32,508 nt of DNA from Verrucomicrobiia bacterium (GTDB lineage: Bacteria; Verrucomicrobiota; Verrucomicrobiia; Limisphaerales; CAIMTB01). The translations under genes and the position numbers were made by a program. Under the pieces are notes generated by a model that searched no databases, was not told the origin of the DNA, and saw only the letters and a list, made by a program, of their open reading frames with translations. Shown piece after piece: positions 129-32,508 of this stretch (the first letter of the stretch is position 1; every line of letters begins with the position of its first letter). The stretch spans positions 1 through 32,508 of the forward strand of contig JAHCBA010000056.1 of NCBI GenBank assembly GCA_019634625.1, in the 5' to 3' direction.

Positions 129-484
129 CGGGTGATGCGTGAAAGGTGCCGGGGAGGAGTGGGAGGCGGATGTGGTTGAACAGAATGGCGGAATGAGAGT
201 GATCGACGGGATTGAAGAGATCAACAAAAAATACCTGTCCCACTATCAAGCTAGCTCCGCGAGTCCACAAAGCACCCCACCATTGCGGCCGCGTGGAACT
301 CGGCTCCCGGATGCCACGCTTCGCGACGCTCGCACCTCATTCCAGGACTCCGGGACGCCACGGCTACACGGTGGGGACTGGTGTTGGGCTGGTGCAATGT
401 CTACGATGCAGGGAGGGGGGTCGTCTCGGGGAAGATGACGGGATACAGGAATGAGGTGCTTGTGACGATATTTCCAATTGGGCG
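129..484. other. Intergenic region without a convincing gene
   Basis: These 356 bases separate the left-edge transposase from the LOG-family gene. The transposase leader and its terminal repeat occupy about 166-249. The rest (about 255-440) contains GC-rich text such as GGAACTCGGCTCCCGG and CTTCGCGACGCTCGC. It has the look of another dispersed non-coding repeat, but no second copy exists in this window. The short open frames here have no recognisable protein features, and no terminator or promoter is convincing. Confidence 0.5.
166..249 (-). repeat. RAYT leader with terminal 31-base repeat arm
   Basis: The arm at 219-249 starts GATCAACA and ends CCTGTCCCACTATCAA. It has the same layout as the reverse arms at 12133-12163, 17497-17527 and 22387-22417: TCAACA or TCAnnA, then about eight bases, then a CC-GTC-like block and an A/T-rich end. 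Inward of it, GCGGATG followed by TTGAACAGAA (about 168-186) matches GCGGATC followed by TTCAACAGAA in the 11997-12163 island. The stretch therefore appears homologous to those islands over roughly 85 bases, although divergent. Its position just upstream of the transposase start suggests it is one end of that element. Confidence 0.5.
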
Positions 485-6128: not shown

Positions 6129-6133
6129 GGGAT

Positions 6134-6245
6134 GGCGAATGGCGAATGGCGAATGGCGAATGGCGAATGGCGAATGGCGAATGGCGAATGGCGAGTGGCG
6201 AGTGGCGAGTGGCGAGTGGCGAGTGGCGAGTGGCGAGTGGCGAGT
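6134..6245. repeat. Two-block heptanucleotide tandem array in the folB leader
   Basis: Eight copies of GGCGAAT (6134-6189) are followed without interruption by eight copies of GGCGAGT (6190-6245). The two blocks differ by one A-to-G transition. On the folB sense strand the order is eight ACTCGCC then eight ATTCGCC, ending five bases before the folB ATG. Seven is not a multiple of three and neither unit creates a stop in any frame, which explains the open frames running through it. Copy number could vary by slippage. Confidence 0.95.
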
Positions 6246-6271
6246 GGTGTGCCTGCGGGTTCGAGTACGAG

Positions 6272-6346
6272 TACCGCCCTTCGGGCTGAGTACGAGTTTC
6301 CACGAGGGTTGGCGGGTGCGGGTTCCGAAAGCCAGGGATGCGCCCG
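6272..6346. repeat. Dispersed element of about 77 bases headed by a GCCC hairpin, copy 1
   Basis: It begins TACCGCCCTTCGGGCTGAGT, where GCCC-TTC-GGGC can form a tight hairpin. It continues ACGAGT, CACGAGGGTTGG and GGTTCCG and ends GGATGCGCCCG. Copies 2 (12266-12342) and 3 (22506-22582) share the same order of blocks. This copy starts 26 bases after the heptanucleotide array, between folB and the HAD-Nudix gene. Confidence 0.75.
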
Positions 6347-11848: not shown

Positions 11849-11996
11849 GGCGGGAGGACGGTAGAGGAGGGTGCTGGGTGGGGGGAATCGGGAATCCGGA
11901 AGAGGGGGATGGCGGACAGGGGCCGGCCCGGATCCTAAGCCGTAGCCATGCAATAAGGTCGGGCGCGCCGGCTTAATCTTTTCGGCCAAGGACTCC

Positions 11997-12163
11997 AAAT
12001 AGAAAGTCAGGCATAGTGTTGTTGACGTCGCACGACTGCCCGATTCCCCCCCCCGAAATCCCATCCGACCGCTGGAGATGACCTGATCGCGGATCTTCAA
12101 CAGAACAACGCCCGGCCTTTTCGACACAACGAGGTCAACAGTACACTGCCCGTCTCATTATCT
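11997..12163. repeat. REP/MITE-like island, copy A
   Basis: The left arm (11997-12027) reads AAATAGAAAGTCAGGC, nine bases, then GTTGACG-type text. The right arm (12133-12163) is its imperfect inverse: GGTCAACAG ... GCCCGTC ... ATTATCT. A second reverse-oriented arm (about 12095-12125) starts CTTCAACAGAACAACGCCCG. Between the arms, GAGATGACCTGATC matches copy C (GAGGTGACCTGATC) and, more loosely, copy B (GAGATGGGCTTGTC). The island is richer in A and T than the flanks. The ends form a 31-base imperfect inverted repeat enclosing about 167 bases. Confidence 0.7.
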
Positions 12164-12265
12164 GGAGAATGCGAGAGCGAGTTGATCTGAAGAGCCCGGT
12201 GCGGGGCAACCGCCCGCCGGGATCTGAGCGGGGGGCGCCGGGTGACCGGCGGCCCTACCGCGACA

Positions 12266-12342
12266 GTGCCGCCCTTCGGGCTGAGTACGAGTCCCCACAC
12301 GGGGTGGTTTGGGCGAGTTCCAGGAACCTGAGATGCGCCCGG
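12266..12342. repeat. Dispersed element headed by a GCCC hairpin, copy 2
   Basis: It begins GTGCCGCCCTTCGGGCTGAG, continues TACGAGTCCCCAC, GGGGTGGTTTGGGCGAGTTC and CAGGAACCTGAGATGCGCCC. The hairpin GCCC-TTC-GGGC and the terminal GAGATGCGCCC are shared with the other copies. It lies about 100 bases to the right of island A, the same order and similar spacing as copy 3 relative to island C. Confidence 0.75.
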
Positions 12343-12927: not shown

Positions 12928-14085
<1,158 letters not shown>

Positions 14086-14093
14086 AGGCGGAG

Positions 14094-14184
14094 GCTTGAG
14101 GCCTGAAGCCTGAAGCCTGAAGCCTGAAGCCTGAAGCCTGAAACCTGAAACCTGAAACCTGAAACCTGAAGCCTGAGGGCTGAG
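14094..14184. repeat. Two-block heptanucleotide array between galM and mqnA
   Basis: Units in order: GCTTGAG, six GCCTGAA (14101-14142), four ACCTGAA (14143-14170), GCCTGAG and GGCTGAG. As in the array at 6134-6245, the unit is seven bases and two blocks differ by a single transition. The array fills nearly the whole gap between the galM stop (14085) and the mqnA stop (14191), two convergent genes. Confidence 0.95.
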
Positions 14185-15075: not shown

Positions 15076-15100
15076 GGGGTCAGATCTCTGATTTTGACAA
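15076..15100 (+). repeat. Left terminal inverted repeat of the RAYT element
   Basis: Twenty-five bases beginning GGGGTCAGATCTCTG, pairing with 16163-16187 (24 of 25 positions). The internal GTCA...TGAC makes it a weak palindrome. Confidence 0.9.
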
Positions 15101-15111
15101 ATCTCCGGAGG

Positions 15112-15121
15112 TCGGAGGAGG
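15112..15121 (+). promoter_or_regulatory. Strong Shine-Dalgarno site of the RAYT gene
   Basis: TCGGAGGAGG/GGAGGAGGG lies about 10 bases upstream of the ATG at 15131. Almost no other gene in the window has a comparable site, so it both supports this start and sets the element apart. Confidence 0.6.
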
Positions 15122-15130
15122 GTTGCGGAC

Positions 15131-16183
15131 ATGGCGAGGCCTTTGCGATGCGAGTTGGAGGGAGGGCGCCAGCATGTGATGGCGCGGGGGAACGAGCGGA
15201 GGCCCATCTTCGTGGAAGACCGGGACCGGCAGCACTTCATGGAGTTACTGGCGGAGCTTCCGGAGCGATTCGGGGTGGAGGTGCATGCCTGGGTGCTGAT
15301 GGACAATCATTATCATCTGCTGTTGAGGACACCGGAGGCGAATCTGAGCCGGGCGTGCCAGTGGTTGAACGTGGCGTACAGCGTGTGGTTCAACCGGCGG
15401 CATGAACGGATCGGGCACCTTTTTCAGGGGCGGTTCAAATCTGTGCTGGTGGACGACGGGAGCTGGATGGAGGTGGCCCGGTATGTGCATTTGAATCCGG
15501 TGCGGGTGGCTGGATTGGGACTGGGCAAACCGGACCGTGCGCGACAGCGGACGGTGGGTTCGCCCGACCCCGGGGGAGACTTGGTGGCGCGACGCCTGGA
15601 GGGATTGCGGAGCTTCCGGTGGAGTTCGTACCGGGCGTATGCGGGATTGGCGGAGGCGCCCCCGTGGCTGACGACCGGCGATGTGCTGGGAGTCGGGCGG
15701 GGCGGTCTGACCGTGACCGAGGCCAGACGGGAGTTGCGAAAGTACCATGAGGCGCCCCTGCGGGGAGGCCGCTTGGAGACGGTGTGGGACCGGGTGGTGG
15801 GGGGGGCGCTGCTAGGGTCGGAGGAGTTCATTGTCCGGATGAAGGAGCGGCTCAAGCAGGTGCCGGGGGAGGTTTCCGGGGCTGGCGGGTTTCGGGATCG
15901 GATTGGGTGGGAGCGGATCGTTGAGGCGGTGGAGGCGGAGCACGGCGAGCGGTGGGAGGCATTTCGGGATCGACACGGGGACTGGGCCCGGGATGTGGCG
16001 CTGTACCTGGGGCGTCGGAGAGGGCGGATGACCTTGCGGGAGCTGGGCGAGCGAGTGGGCGGACTTGGCGTGGCGGCGACCGGGCAGGCGGTGAGTCGGG
16101 TGACCAGGAGCCGGGAACGGGGTGGGGATCTGGCTCGACGCATCGAGGCGATCGAACGGCAATTGTCAAAATCAGAGATGTGA
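15131..16183 (+). CDS. REP-associated tyrosine transposase (Y1, IS200/IS605-like fold)
   Basis: The 350-residue protein is a Y1 HUH nuclease of the COG1943 type. It opens ARPLRCELEGGRQHVMARGN, the standard RAYT N-terminus. The HUH motif is H60-Y61-H62 in MDNHYHLLL, and the catalytic tyrosine is Y118 in EVARYVHLNPVRVAG. HLFQGRFKSVLVD (97-109) is also conserved. Residues beyond about 200 form a long C-terminal extension ending in a helix-turn-helix-like segment (TLRELGERVGGLGVAATGQA). It would cut and join single-stranded DNA at its own ends or at related repeats. A strong GGAGGAGGG lies about 10 bases before the ATG, unlike neighbouring genes, which lack such sites. The last codons and the TGA lie inside the right terminal repeat. 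All motifs are intact, so it may be active. Confidence 0.93.
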   Translation: MARPLRCELEGGRQHVMARGNERRPIFVEDRDRQHFMELLAELPERFGVEVHAWVLMDNHYHLLLRTPEANLSRACQWLNVAYSVWFNRRHERIGHLFQGRFKSVLVDDGSWMEVARYVHLNPVRVAGLGLGKPDRARQRTVGSPDPGGDLVARRLEGLRSFRWSSYRAYAGLAEAPPWLTTGDVLGVGRGGLTVTEARRELRKYHEAPLRGGRLETVWDRVVGGALLGSEEFIVRMKERLKQVPGEVSGAGGFRDRIGWERIVEAVEAEHGERWEAFRDRHGDWARDVALYLGRRRGRMTLRELGERVGGLGVAATGQAVSRVTRSRERGGDLARRIEAIERQLSKSEM

Positions 16184-16187
16184 CCCC
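16163..16187 (-). repeat. Right terminal inverted repeat of the RAYT element
   Basis: Reverse complement of the left repeat with one mismatch. It encodes the last residues of the transposase and its TGA stop (16181-16183). A GTG at 16180 overlaps this stop and is in frame with the SGNH gene. Confidence 0.9.
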
Positions 16188-17274: not shown

Positions 17275-17307
17275 CCAGTGACCTTCCGAAGCACGACTTC
17301 GAAGCGT

Positions 17308-17527
17308 AAATAAAAAGTCAGGCGATTTGATGTTGACGCCGAATCATCCGGTCAGAAGTTCGAGAAGGTATTAAAAGTCAGGCGTCTTTCGGTTGACGCA
17401 GTGATCCGATCGGGGGCCCAAAGAAATCTCATTCGGCTGCGGGGAGATGGGCTTGTCGCCGGTAAGTAAAACGAGCCGGGCCTATTCTTTGACGGTCAGT
17501 CAATAGTACAATGCCTGCCAAATAATC
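17308..17527. repeat. REP/MITE-like island, copy B
   Basis: Two forward 31-base arms lie exactly 60 bases apart (17308-17338 and 17368-17398), both with AAAAGTCAGGCG and GTTGACG. A reverse arm lies at 17497-17527 (CAGTCAATAG ... ATGCCTGCC ... AATAATC). Between them GGAGATGGGCTTGTCGCCGG and AGTAAAACGAGCCGGGCC align with the interior of copy A. The island occupies most of the 293-base gap between the SGNH gene and tctA, two convergent genes. No terminator is obvious outside it. Confidence 0.7.
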
Positions 17528-17567
17528 GGCATGGGTGCTTCCTTACGGGGCGTTGCCTGGATGGAGG

Positions 17568-22215: not shown

Positions 22216-22265
22216 CCGATTGCTGCTGGGGCCCACCCACCATTCAATAGAATAGAGAATAGAAG

Positions 22266-22456
22266 AAATAAATGGTCAGGCTCTTAGTTGTTCACGCCAT
22301 ACCGGATACCCCAAGAAGACCAACGTGGCTGCCAGAGGTGACCTGATCATGATTCGTCAACAAAATCAAGAAAGGGTCGGTTTGGTCAGTCAGCAGTAAA
22401 ATGCCCGACTTATTGTTAGATCTTGGGTCAATAATTATCTGCCAGGCCTATTGCAG
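22266..22456. repeat. REP/MITE-like island, copy C
   Basis: A forward arm (22266-22296: AAATAAATGGTCAGGC ... GTTCACG) is followed by three reverse-oriented arms: about 22355-22380 (CGTCAACAAAATC), 22387-22417 (CAGTCAGCAG ... ATGCCCGACTTATT) and about 22426-22456 (GGTCAATAATTATCTGCC). Inside, GAGGTGACCTGATC matches copy A. The island begins about 50 bases from the decayed transposase fragment and is markedly A/T-richer than the flanks. Confidence 0.7.
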
Positions 22457-22505
22457 ATGCGCACACAAGAGGTGAGCCTGCCGGTTCGGCGACGTGAATG
22501 ATGGG

Positions 22506-22582
22506 TACCGCCCTGCGGGCTGAGCACGAGTCCCAACGAGGGATGGCTTGGGCGCGTTCCTAGGACCTGAGATGGCCCGGAG
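22506..22582. repeat. Dispersed element headed by a GCCC hairpin, copy 3
   Basis: It begins TACCGCCCTGCGGGCTGAGC and continues ACGAGTCCCAACGAGGGATG, GCTTGGGCGCGTTCC and GGACCTGAGATGGCCCGG. Compared with copies 1 and 2 the hairpin loop is TGC instead of TTC, leaving the GCCC/GGGC stem intact. It ends about 70 bases before the aminotransferase start. Confidence 0.75.
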
Positions 22583-32213: not shown

Positions 32214-32508
32214 TCACCCCACTGCATCGACGCGGAGATCGCGCAACACGGTAACTCCTGGAATCGGGGCGCCGCGAATGATGCGGGCGCCGCTCTTGCG
32301 CCGCTTGCCGAACTTGTCCCGGTGCCGTTCCCACATCTGGTTCACGAACTCCTTCGATCCCAGGAACACCCCGTCAGTCATGTGTCGGATCCGCAGCCGC
32401 AGGATCTGGCCCAGCGGCAGTTGACCACCCCGCGCCAGTTCCGCCCGGATCGCCTCCGGACCCAGCACCCGCTTGTCGCTCCGCCCCGACGTCCCGCCGA
32501 TCACGTAT
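32214..32508 (-). CDS. REP-associated transposase, C-terminal part (cut by window edge)
   Basis: The visible 97 codons run in from the right edge and end at a TGA (32214-32216). The sequence has VIGGTSGRSDKRVLGPEAIR, ELARGGQLPLGQILRLRIRH, MTDGVFLGSKEFVNQMWERH, RDKFGKRRKSGAR, and LRDLRVDAVG at the end. The blocks 'R.R..TDG..LGS..FV', 'R..FG.KRK.GAR' and 'LRDLRV' are, in my recollection, the standard C-terminus of a group of RAYT transposases common in Verrucomicrobia. The open frame has no stop before the edge, so the GTG at 32504 is unlikely to be the true start. The catalytic domain is outside the window. Confidence 0.7.
   Translation of the reverse strand, partial: YVIGGTSGRSDKRVLGPEAIRAELARGGQLPLGQILRLRIRHMTDGVFLGSKEFVNQMWERHRDKFGKRRKSGARIIRGAPIPGVTVLRDLRVDAVG

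Follow-up and report, generated by a model that had tools for sequence, protein, structure and literature searches.

Insertion sequences of the IS200/IS605 type encode a Y1 transposase and are bounded by a left end with a foot sequence and by a right-end hairpin, and non-autonomous derivatives of them exist. Domesticated transposases are reportedly the subject of a 2017 paper by Bertels and others. RAYTs are described, in the accessible parts of the respective sources, as single-copy domesticated genes (PMC8049555) and as flanked by inverted REP hairpins (PMC2817692). In TIRtrons, a Y1 transposase (TIRYT) is accompanied on both sides by inverted repeats with a GGGGWSAS-type motif, and TIR repeats elsewhere occur in dimers and clusters, according to the available portion of PMC3733652. 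The TnpAY1 subclass 2.3, named from Chromatiales and Alteromonadales, has a median length of 325 aa, 3.9 copies, the key motifs NHYH, WE and YVDLNP and an insertion between HUH and Y; no REP-like sequence is reported for it in the accessible sections of its source (PMC6006769).

The window analysed here, that is, the whole stretch of 32,508 nucleotides, is the entire contig C56 of a 6.74 Mb Verrucomicrobiia genome in 88 contigs, and the sequence therefore cannot be extended leftward on this contig. Both edges cut a gene of one Y1 transposase family (Table 1). We favour, with a probability of about two in three, the reading that this family moves as a Y1 unit with a short upstream repeat, the arm, as its left end, and that the repeat islands A, B and C in the window are non-autonomous clusters of this end motif. 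The reading is based on data, namely the copy number, the one-sidedness of the arm, the arm common to leaders and islands, leader homology that starts at the arm, and an arm amplification confined, among the genomes searched, to this one.

The family shares with the REPtron/RAYT (TnpAREP) system an HUH-Y1 transposase bearing a motif of the Y-x-x-NP type, and short repeats that lie beside the gene and are scattered in the genome, some of them as convergent pairs. Unlike that system, as far as the accessible parts of PMC2817692, PMC6006769 and PMC8049555 describe it, which has a single, vertically inherited gene, the present family numbers at least 34 copies, its arm is one-sided, and the arms have neither GTAG nor a stable hairpin. 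With TIRtrons it has in common the Y1 transposase, end repeats, whose GGGACAG form in relatives may correspond to a G..WSAS motif, and the occurrence of repeats elsewhere in dimers and clusters; however, TIRtron repeats are inverted on both sides in the available description (PMC3733652), whereas here they are upstream only. Compared by eye at the level of the consensus, the family's own arms retain only GnCAG of the GGGGWSAS-type motif. Judging from its sequence, the protein resembles TnpAY1 subclass 2.3, with 326 aa against a median of 325, an insertion between HUH and Y, and several copies. It departs from the accessible account of that subclass (PMC6006769) in its NHFH, WG and YIDLNP motifs, its occurrence in Verrucomicrobiota and the presence of an upstream arm. 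The literature searched, from which subscription journals were mostly absent, yielded no account of a multicopy family with a repeat on one side; as far as found, a RAYT that is multicopy and whose one-sided end lacks both hairpin and GTAG would not have been described previously.

A protein search of the genome gave 51 family matches, many of them at contig ends, which suggests that transposase copies broke the assembly. Copies containing a start (35) or a stop (30) were tabulated; once the divergent copy C4:111866 (55% identity) is excluded from the family counts, there are at least 34 start-containing copies (33 and the one at the window's left edge) and 29 stop-containing copies, right edge included. 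The 14 complete family copies have a mean protein identity of 94% and a mean DNA identity of 91.6%, with NG86 values of 0.29 for dS and 0.034 for dN. Four genomes of the same genus hold just 1–3 transposase relatives each, at 38–45% identity, so the amplification belongs to the lineage of this genome. The protein has an HUH-Y1 core with MSNHFH and, as the Y-x-x-NP type motif, YIDLNP. It matches Pfam Y1_Tnp at 50.2 bits (cut-off 23) up to residue 71; the curated model NF047646 (REP-associated tyrosine transposase) matches from position 123 at 59.6 bits, below its cut-off of 80, and a sequence search of solved structures reached ISDra2-type TnpA chains only at E 0.17. Copies differ more at synonymous sites near the ends of the ORF than in its middle (0.366 vs 0.151, permutation p 1e-4), a pattern consistent with gene conversion among them. 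For this reason the steep fall in identity at the ends of the ORF does not by itself mark an element boundary. The copies on C38 and C46 (L026 and L188) have downstream flanks that are 93% identical over 279 nt past the stop, likely a segmental duplication or an assembly effect.

Table 1. Coordinates of the transposase copies, arms, islands and two-sided element within the window
Feature	Position	Strand	Details
Y1/RAYT-type transposase, N-terminal 42 codons	1..128	-	ATG at 128; truncated by contig edge; from sequence and translation
Leader from arm to ATG, left-edge copy	129..215	-	leaders resemble one another as a class (mean z 0.85) but not the islands (mean z 0.08 to 0.10)
Upstream arm of left-edge copy	216..251	-	matrix score 16.4; R1 10.0 bits with filters off; 219-249 in the earlier note
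Island A, forward arm	11994..12030	+	R1 31.7 bits; R2 19.8 bits
Island A, weak inner arm	12092..12121	-	R3 14.4 bits, E 0.47; includes the TTnAACAGAA block
Island A, reverse arm	12130..12166	-	R1 28.6 bits
Two-sided TIRtron	15076-16187		Y1 gene 15131-16183, flanked on either side by the 25-bp inverted repeat GGGGTCAGATCTCTGATTTTGACAA
Island B, outer forward arm	17305..17341	+	R1 38.3 bits; R2 32.9 bits
Island B, second forward arm (tandem)	17365..17401	+	R1 26.9 bits
Island B, reverse arm	17495..17531	-	R1 22.3 bits
Island C, forward arm	22263..22299	+	R1 27.5 bits
Island C, reverse arm	22385..22421	-	R1 25.5 bits; R2 22.6 bits
Island C, weak second reverse arm	22423..22459	-	R3 19.1 bits; R1 13.9 bits
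Second family copy, C-terminal 97 codons and stop	32214..32508	-	truncated by right contig edge; 98% identity over residues 230-326

The 31-base arm that the earlier note saw upstream of the left-edge ATG is real. Scored with a matrix of island arms it clearly exceeds its shuffles (mean -1.1, sd 3.6), 0 of 1000 of which were as good; covariance model R1 detected it with filters off only, and under default filters it was not found at E<=10. It is a weak member of the family, yet clear against shuffles. A second repeat family of about 165 bp with self-complementary ends adjoins the left-edge leader (window 253-364) and recurs close to several further transposase copies, on one side or the other.

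The training set of model R1 comprised 19 leader arms plus 5 from islands, that of R2 the 19 leader arms only, and that of R3 island arms only (35 of 46); R1 and R2 used 19 of the 40 leader arms kept (21-nt core), and one arm-like match (C9, -256) was excluded from the models. R2 and R3 were built separately because leader arms were in the training of R1. By R1, 31 of 33 copies carry one or more upstream arms in the direction of the gene, the window's left-edge copy apart and with 19 leader arms in training; L010 and L029 have no forward arm upstream by this model. With R3, a forward arm is found upstream in 24 of the 33 copies and a reverse arm upstream in 2. None of the 29 stop-containing copies has an arm within 600 nt downstream by R1 or downstream of the stop by R3, and none follows the stop of the right-edge copy. 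A fuzzy pattern places a gene-strand arm in 27 of 28 leaders, C11 being without. R2 in turn, run over 0.79 Mb, identified 54 sites at E<=0.5, islands A, B and C each contributing arms to them. Given that R2 recovers the islands and R3 recovers 24/33 leaders, leader arms and island arms are one family. Family ORFs also hold an antisense arm-like site about 323 nt before the stop (L025:3027-3063, minus strand), which R3 scores at up to 27 bits; it is unproven as a real arm, synonymous variation there being ordinary (63rd percentile) with no added constraint.

The arm has the consensus ATAATAAG-n-CAGGC-n9-TTGAC with an AT-rich 5' foot, and is mostly separated from the downstream ATG by 50 to 140 nt; several leaders carry tandem arms. 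In 10 of 11 pairs of copies, leader homology starts -1 to +35 nt from the 5' end of the proximal arm, which suggests that the foot of the arm is the left end. These 11 pairs are the ones aligned within the leader, two further pairs that match a different repeat far upstream being uncounted, and in one leader pair the homology persists for 27–29 nt beyond the arm. After the stop, part of the copies have a short tail like GTCGCnnCATCTGGGG, and up to 65 nt are common to a few. No empty site was found, and insertion ends are therefore drawn from copy-to-copy comparison.

As to structure, none of 6 folded single arms stands out clearly from its shuffles (z 0.83 to -1.64), and the islands, taken as single-strand DNA, are not clearly above theirs either (z 0.74 for A, 0.45 for C, -1.14 for B). 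A possible 4-bp stem in the arm has no covariation, its pair 14-32 being unpaired in 19 of 35 arms, and the GT[AG]G foot of REPs is absent, the consensus foot being ATAATAAG with no GTAG. In the absence of a clear fold, covariation and a GTAG foot, the arms are not REPs in the strict sense. The two arms of one island are moreover no more alike than arms across islands (16 islands, p 0.96). REPINs, inverted REP pairs that form a hairpin, were rejected on these grounds: neither islands nor arms clearly outdo shuffles in folding, the stem is without covariation, and the island arms are unmatched.

No coordinates were given for the islands in the earlier note; they are taken here as 11994-12166 (A), 17305-17531 (B) and 22263-22421 (C), and islands other than these were defined by convergent model matches. 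Islands A and C lie between divergent genes and island B between convergent genes. In the genome at large R1 has at least 161 matches at E<=10, from the 150 candidates scored out of 948, and ten other genomes, four of them of the same genus, give 2 R1 matches together at E<=1 (150 candidates scored in each), one of these directly upstream of a transposase copy. Among the genomes searched, amplification of the arm is restricted to the family's own genome. In a 0.76 Mb sample of this genome, selected partly for the known matches inside it, 37 neighbouring arm pairs comprise 21 tandem, 13 convergent and 3 divergent ones, and the spacing of tandem arms peaks at 38-41 nt. A different repeat of 77 nt, with copies 74-78% alike, is present at window 6270-6346, 12265-12341 and 22504-22580, where one copy stands alone, one follows island A and one follows island C.

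On the favoured reading of a mobile Y1 unit, the left-edge gene would belong to a mobile HUH-Y1 (RAYT-type) family of at least 34 copies, whose unit would start at the AT-rich 5' foot of the arm and stop shortly past the stop codon, with a right end devoid of an arm. The transposase would recognise the arm as its left end and cleave there. The end motif would have been copied alone, probably in trans, to some 150 or more sites, where the copies would form tandem arms about 38–41 nt apart as well as convergent pairs, islands A–C being three such clusters. Several observations speak against this reading: the GTCGCnnCATCTGGGG-like tail after the stop is limited to part of the copies, the left-edge arm scores weakly, two copies have no forward arm by R1, one leader pair is homologous beyond the arm, and in a second copy-rich genome, G197, the arms are mostly in front of transposases. 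The proposal that the group of the left-edge gene is the autonomous partner of the islands is upheld to the extent that this group is the best candidate, given the arm family common to leader and islands.

The earlier note had gone further and modelled the islands as arm-gene-arm elements that lost their gene, a derivation by internal deletion that is now highly improbable. Leaders and islands do have the arm in common, as the reciprocal R2 and R3 models bear out, and the island ends carry inverted arms. The three leader blocks said to be shared as well, GCGGAT, TTnAACAGAA and TCGAC, do follow one another in that order in island A (at 12089, 12096 and 12121), where the block TTCAACAGAA sits within the degenerate arm 12092-12121, but they are missing from islands B and C. 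When the left-edge leader minus its arm was locally aligned with the island interiors, shuffle p values were 0.11 (A), 0.68 (B) and 0.95 (C). More broadly, 29 leaders with a located arm end were compared, arms removed, with 23 islands, two of them overlapping (C59 and C59b); the mean leader-island z was 0.08 and 0.10 in the two orientations, no match above chance, compared with leader-leader and island-island means of 0.85 and 1.38. Right halves of islands, said in the note to be the better conserved, are not: over 231 island pairs with arms removed the mean local score is 14.5 for left and 14.6 for right halves, and islands A–C are mixed (left/right 24/21, 14/26 and 17/9). With no leader match in their interiors and equal halves, the islands have kept no transposase leader beyond the arm. 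The matching arm anticipated downstream of the full gene, whose absence the note had named as refuting its model, is missing within 600 nt of the stop in all 29 copies, no transposase gene remnant was seen in the islands, and the island arms are inverted, those of the transposase gene being upstream and in direct orientation. An origin by internal deletion was therefore rejected, on the missing downstream arms, the lack of leader homology and the confinement of the blocks to A. Nor do the islands resemble MITEs, which retain the two termini of the autonomous element together with subterminal sequence; there is no right-end arm and no leader homology. The Y1 transposase and a left end with a foot sequence are also features of IS200/IS605 elements; unlike in those, no right-end hairpin was found here and the islands are not deleted copies.

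Two further explanations give the arm a role other than that of a transposon end. The transposase unit could insert immediately 3' of arms scattered beforehand, so that the arm is a pre-existing target and hence found upstream only. Several leaders with tandem arms and the spacing mode of 38-41 nt are consistent with such a target, and insertion sequences that use REPs as targets are known from the accessible part of PMC2817692. However, the homology between copies takes in the proximal arm and begins near its foot, and the different arms of distant relatives stand at about the same place, which makes a target unlikely. More doubtful still is an arm that serves as a site for another protein, a regulator or nucleoid protein, and was borrowed by transposase leaders, although GnCA...TGAC is a half-palindrome and arms lie near genes unrelated to transposition, as do islands A and C between divergent genes. 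Island B is found between convergent genes, and the arms are clustered in tandem and convergent arrangements. Against such a protein site speaks also that the amplification is seen in the genome where the transposase expanded too and not in ten others, and that the association with the transposase is phylum-wide.

Of 288 genomes from the phylum, 48 contain the transposase at E<=1e-30. GGGACAG was counted in an independent set of 27 leaders, where it occurs within 200 nt upstream on the gene strand in 10 and on the reverse strand in 3, and downstream in 0/27 forward and 2/27 reverse; the 10 upstream occurrences have a uniform-model p of 3.6e-13 and were never reached in 2000 shuffles. The first set, from which the motif was taken, had it upstream in 12/24 forward and 2/24 reverse, and downstream in 2/27 forward and 0/27 reverse. 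A stricter pattern that adds the TTGA part is found upstream and forward in 6/27 leaders of the independent and 9/24 of the first set; being rarer in both, it indicates that arms vary. R3 detects upstream arms in other genomes at L083 and L084 (51 loci searched), and distant relatives with different arms hold these at about the same place. One genome of the phylum, G197, has 117 transposase matches at E<=1e-30 that belong to several lineages with different upstream arms (loci L199, L234, L238, L242, L245, L248, L251, L254 and L257). Its lineage-specific arms are mostly in front of transposases: when stand-alone arms were sought there with two narrow patterns, these hit 5 and 4 sites, and of the 9 at least 7 are directly upstream of transposase copies. 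Amplification of the arm is thus not a general result of many copies. Relatives on gammaproteobacterial plasmids (16 records) have 26-31% identity, and some of their leaders, viewed by eye in eight of the 16 regions and uncounted, carry GGACAGACAC or AGACACCCA.

It is possible, as a tentative extension, that a phylum-wide Verrucomicrobiota branch of RAYT type moves with a single upstream, direct, non-hairpin arm that varies between lineages, the right end being set otherwise, for example by the 3' end of the gene. In the present species the end motif would then have escaped and multiplied, and RAYT genes would here be active and multicopy rather than domesticated and single-copy. With at least 34 copies and well over a hundred stand-alone repeats, the relation between transposase and repeat becomes testable where both have multiplied, and the question is raised of how a Y1 enzyme defines its second end without a repeat. 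Subclass 2.3 is reported without a REP-like partner in the accessible text of PMC6006769, whereas the related family described here has upstream repeats, as do its relatives in the phylum.

Elements with two arms do occur in the same genome, as two-sided TIRtrons are present in it, and the main family is not among them. One of them lies in the window itself (Table 1); its 25-bp repeat has 14 copies in the 0.76 Mb sample, and contig C61 holds a similar element. The window further contains tandem arrays of 7-bp units at 6132-6236 and 14083-14173 (ATGGCGA/GTGGCGA and TGAAGCC, respectively).
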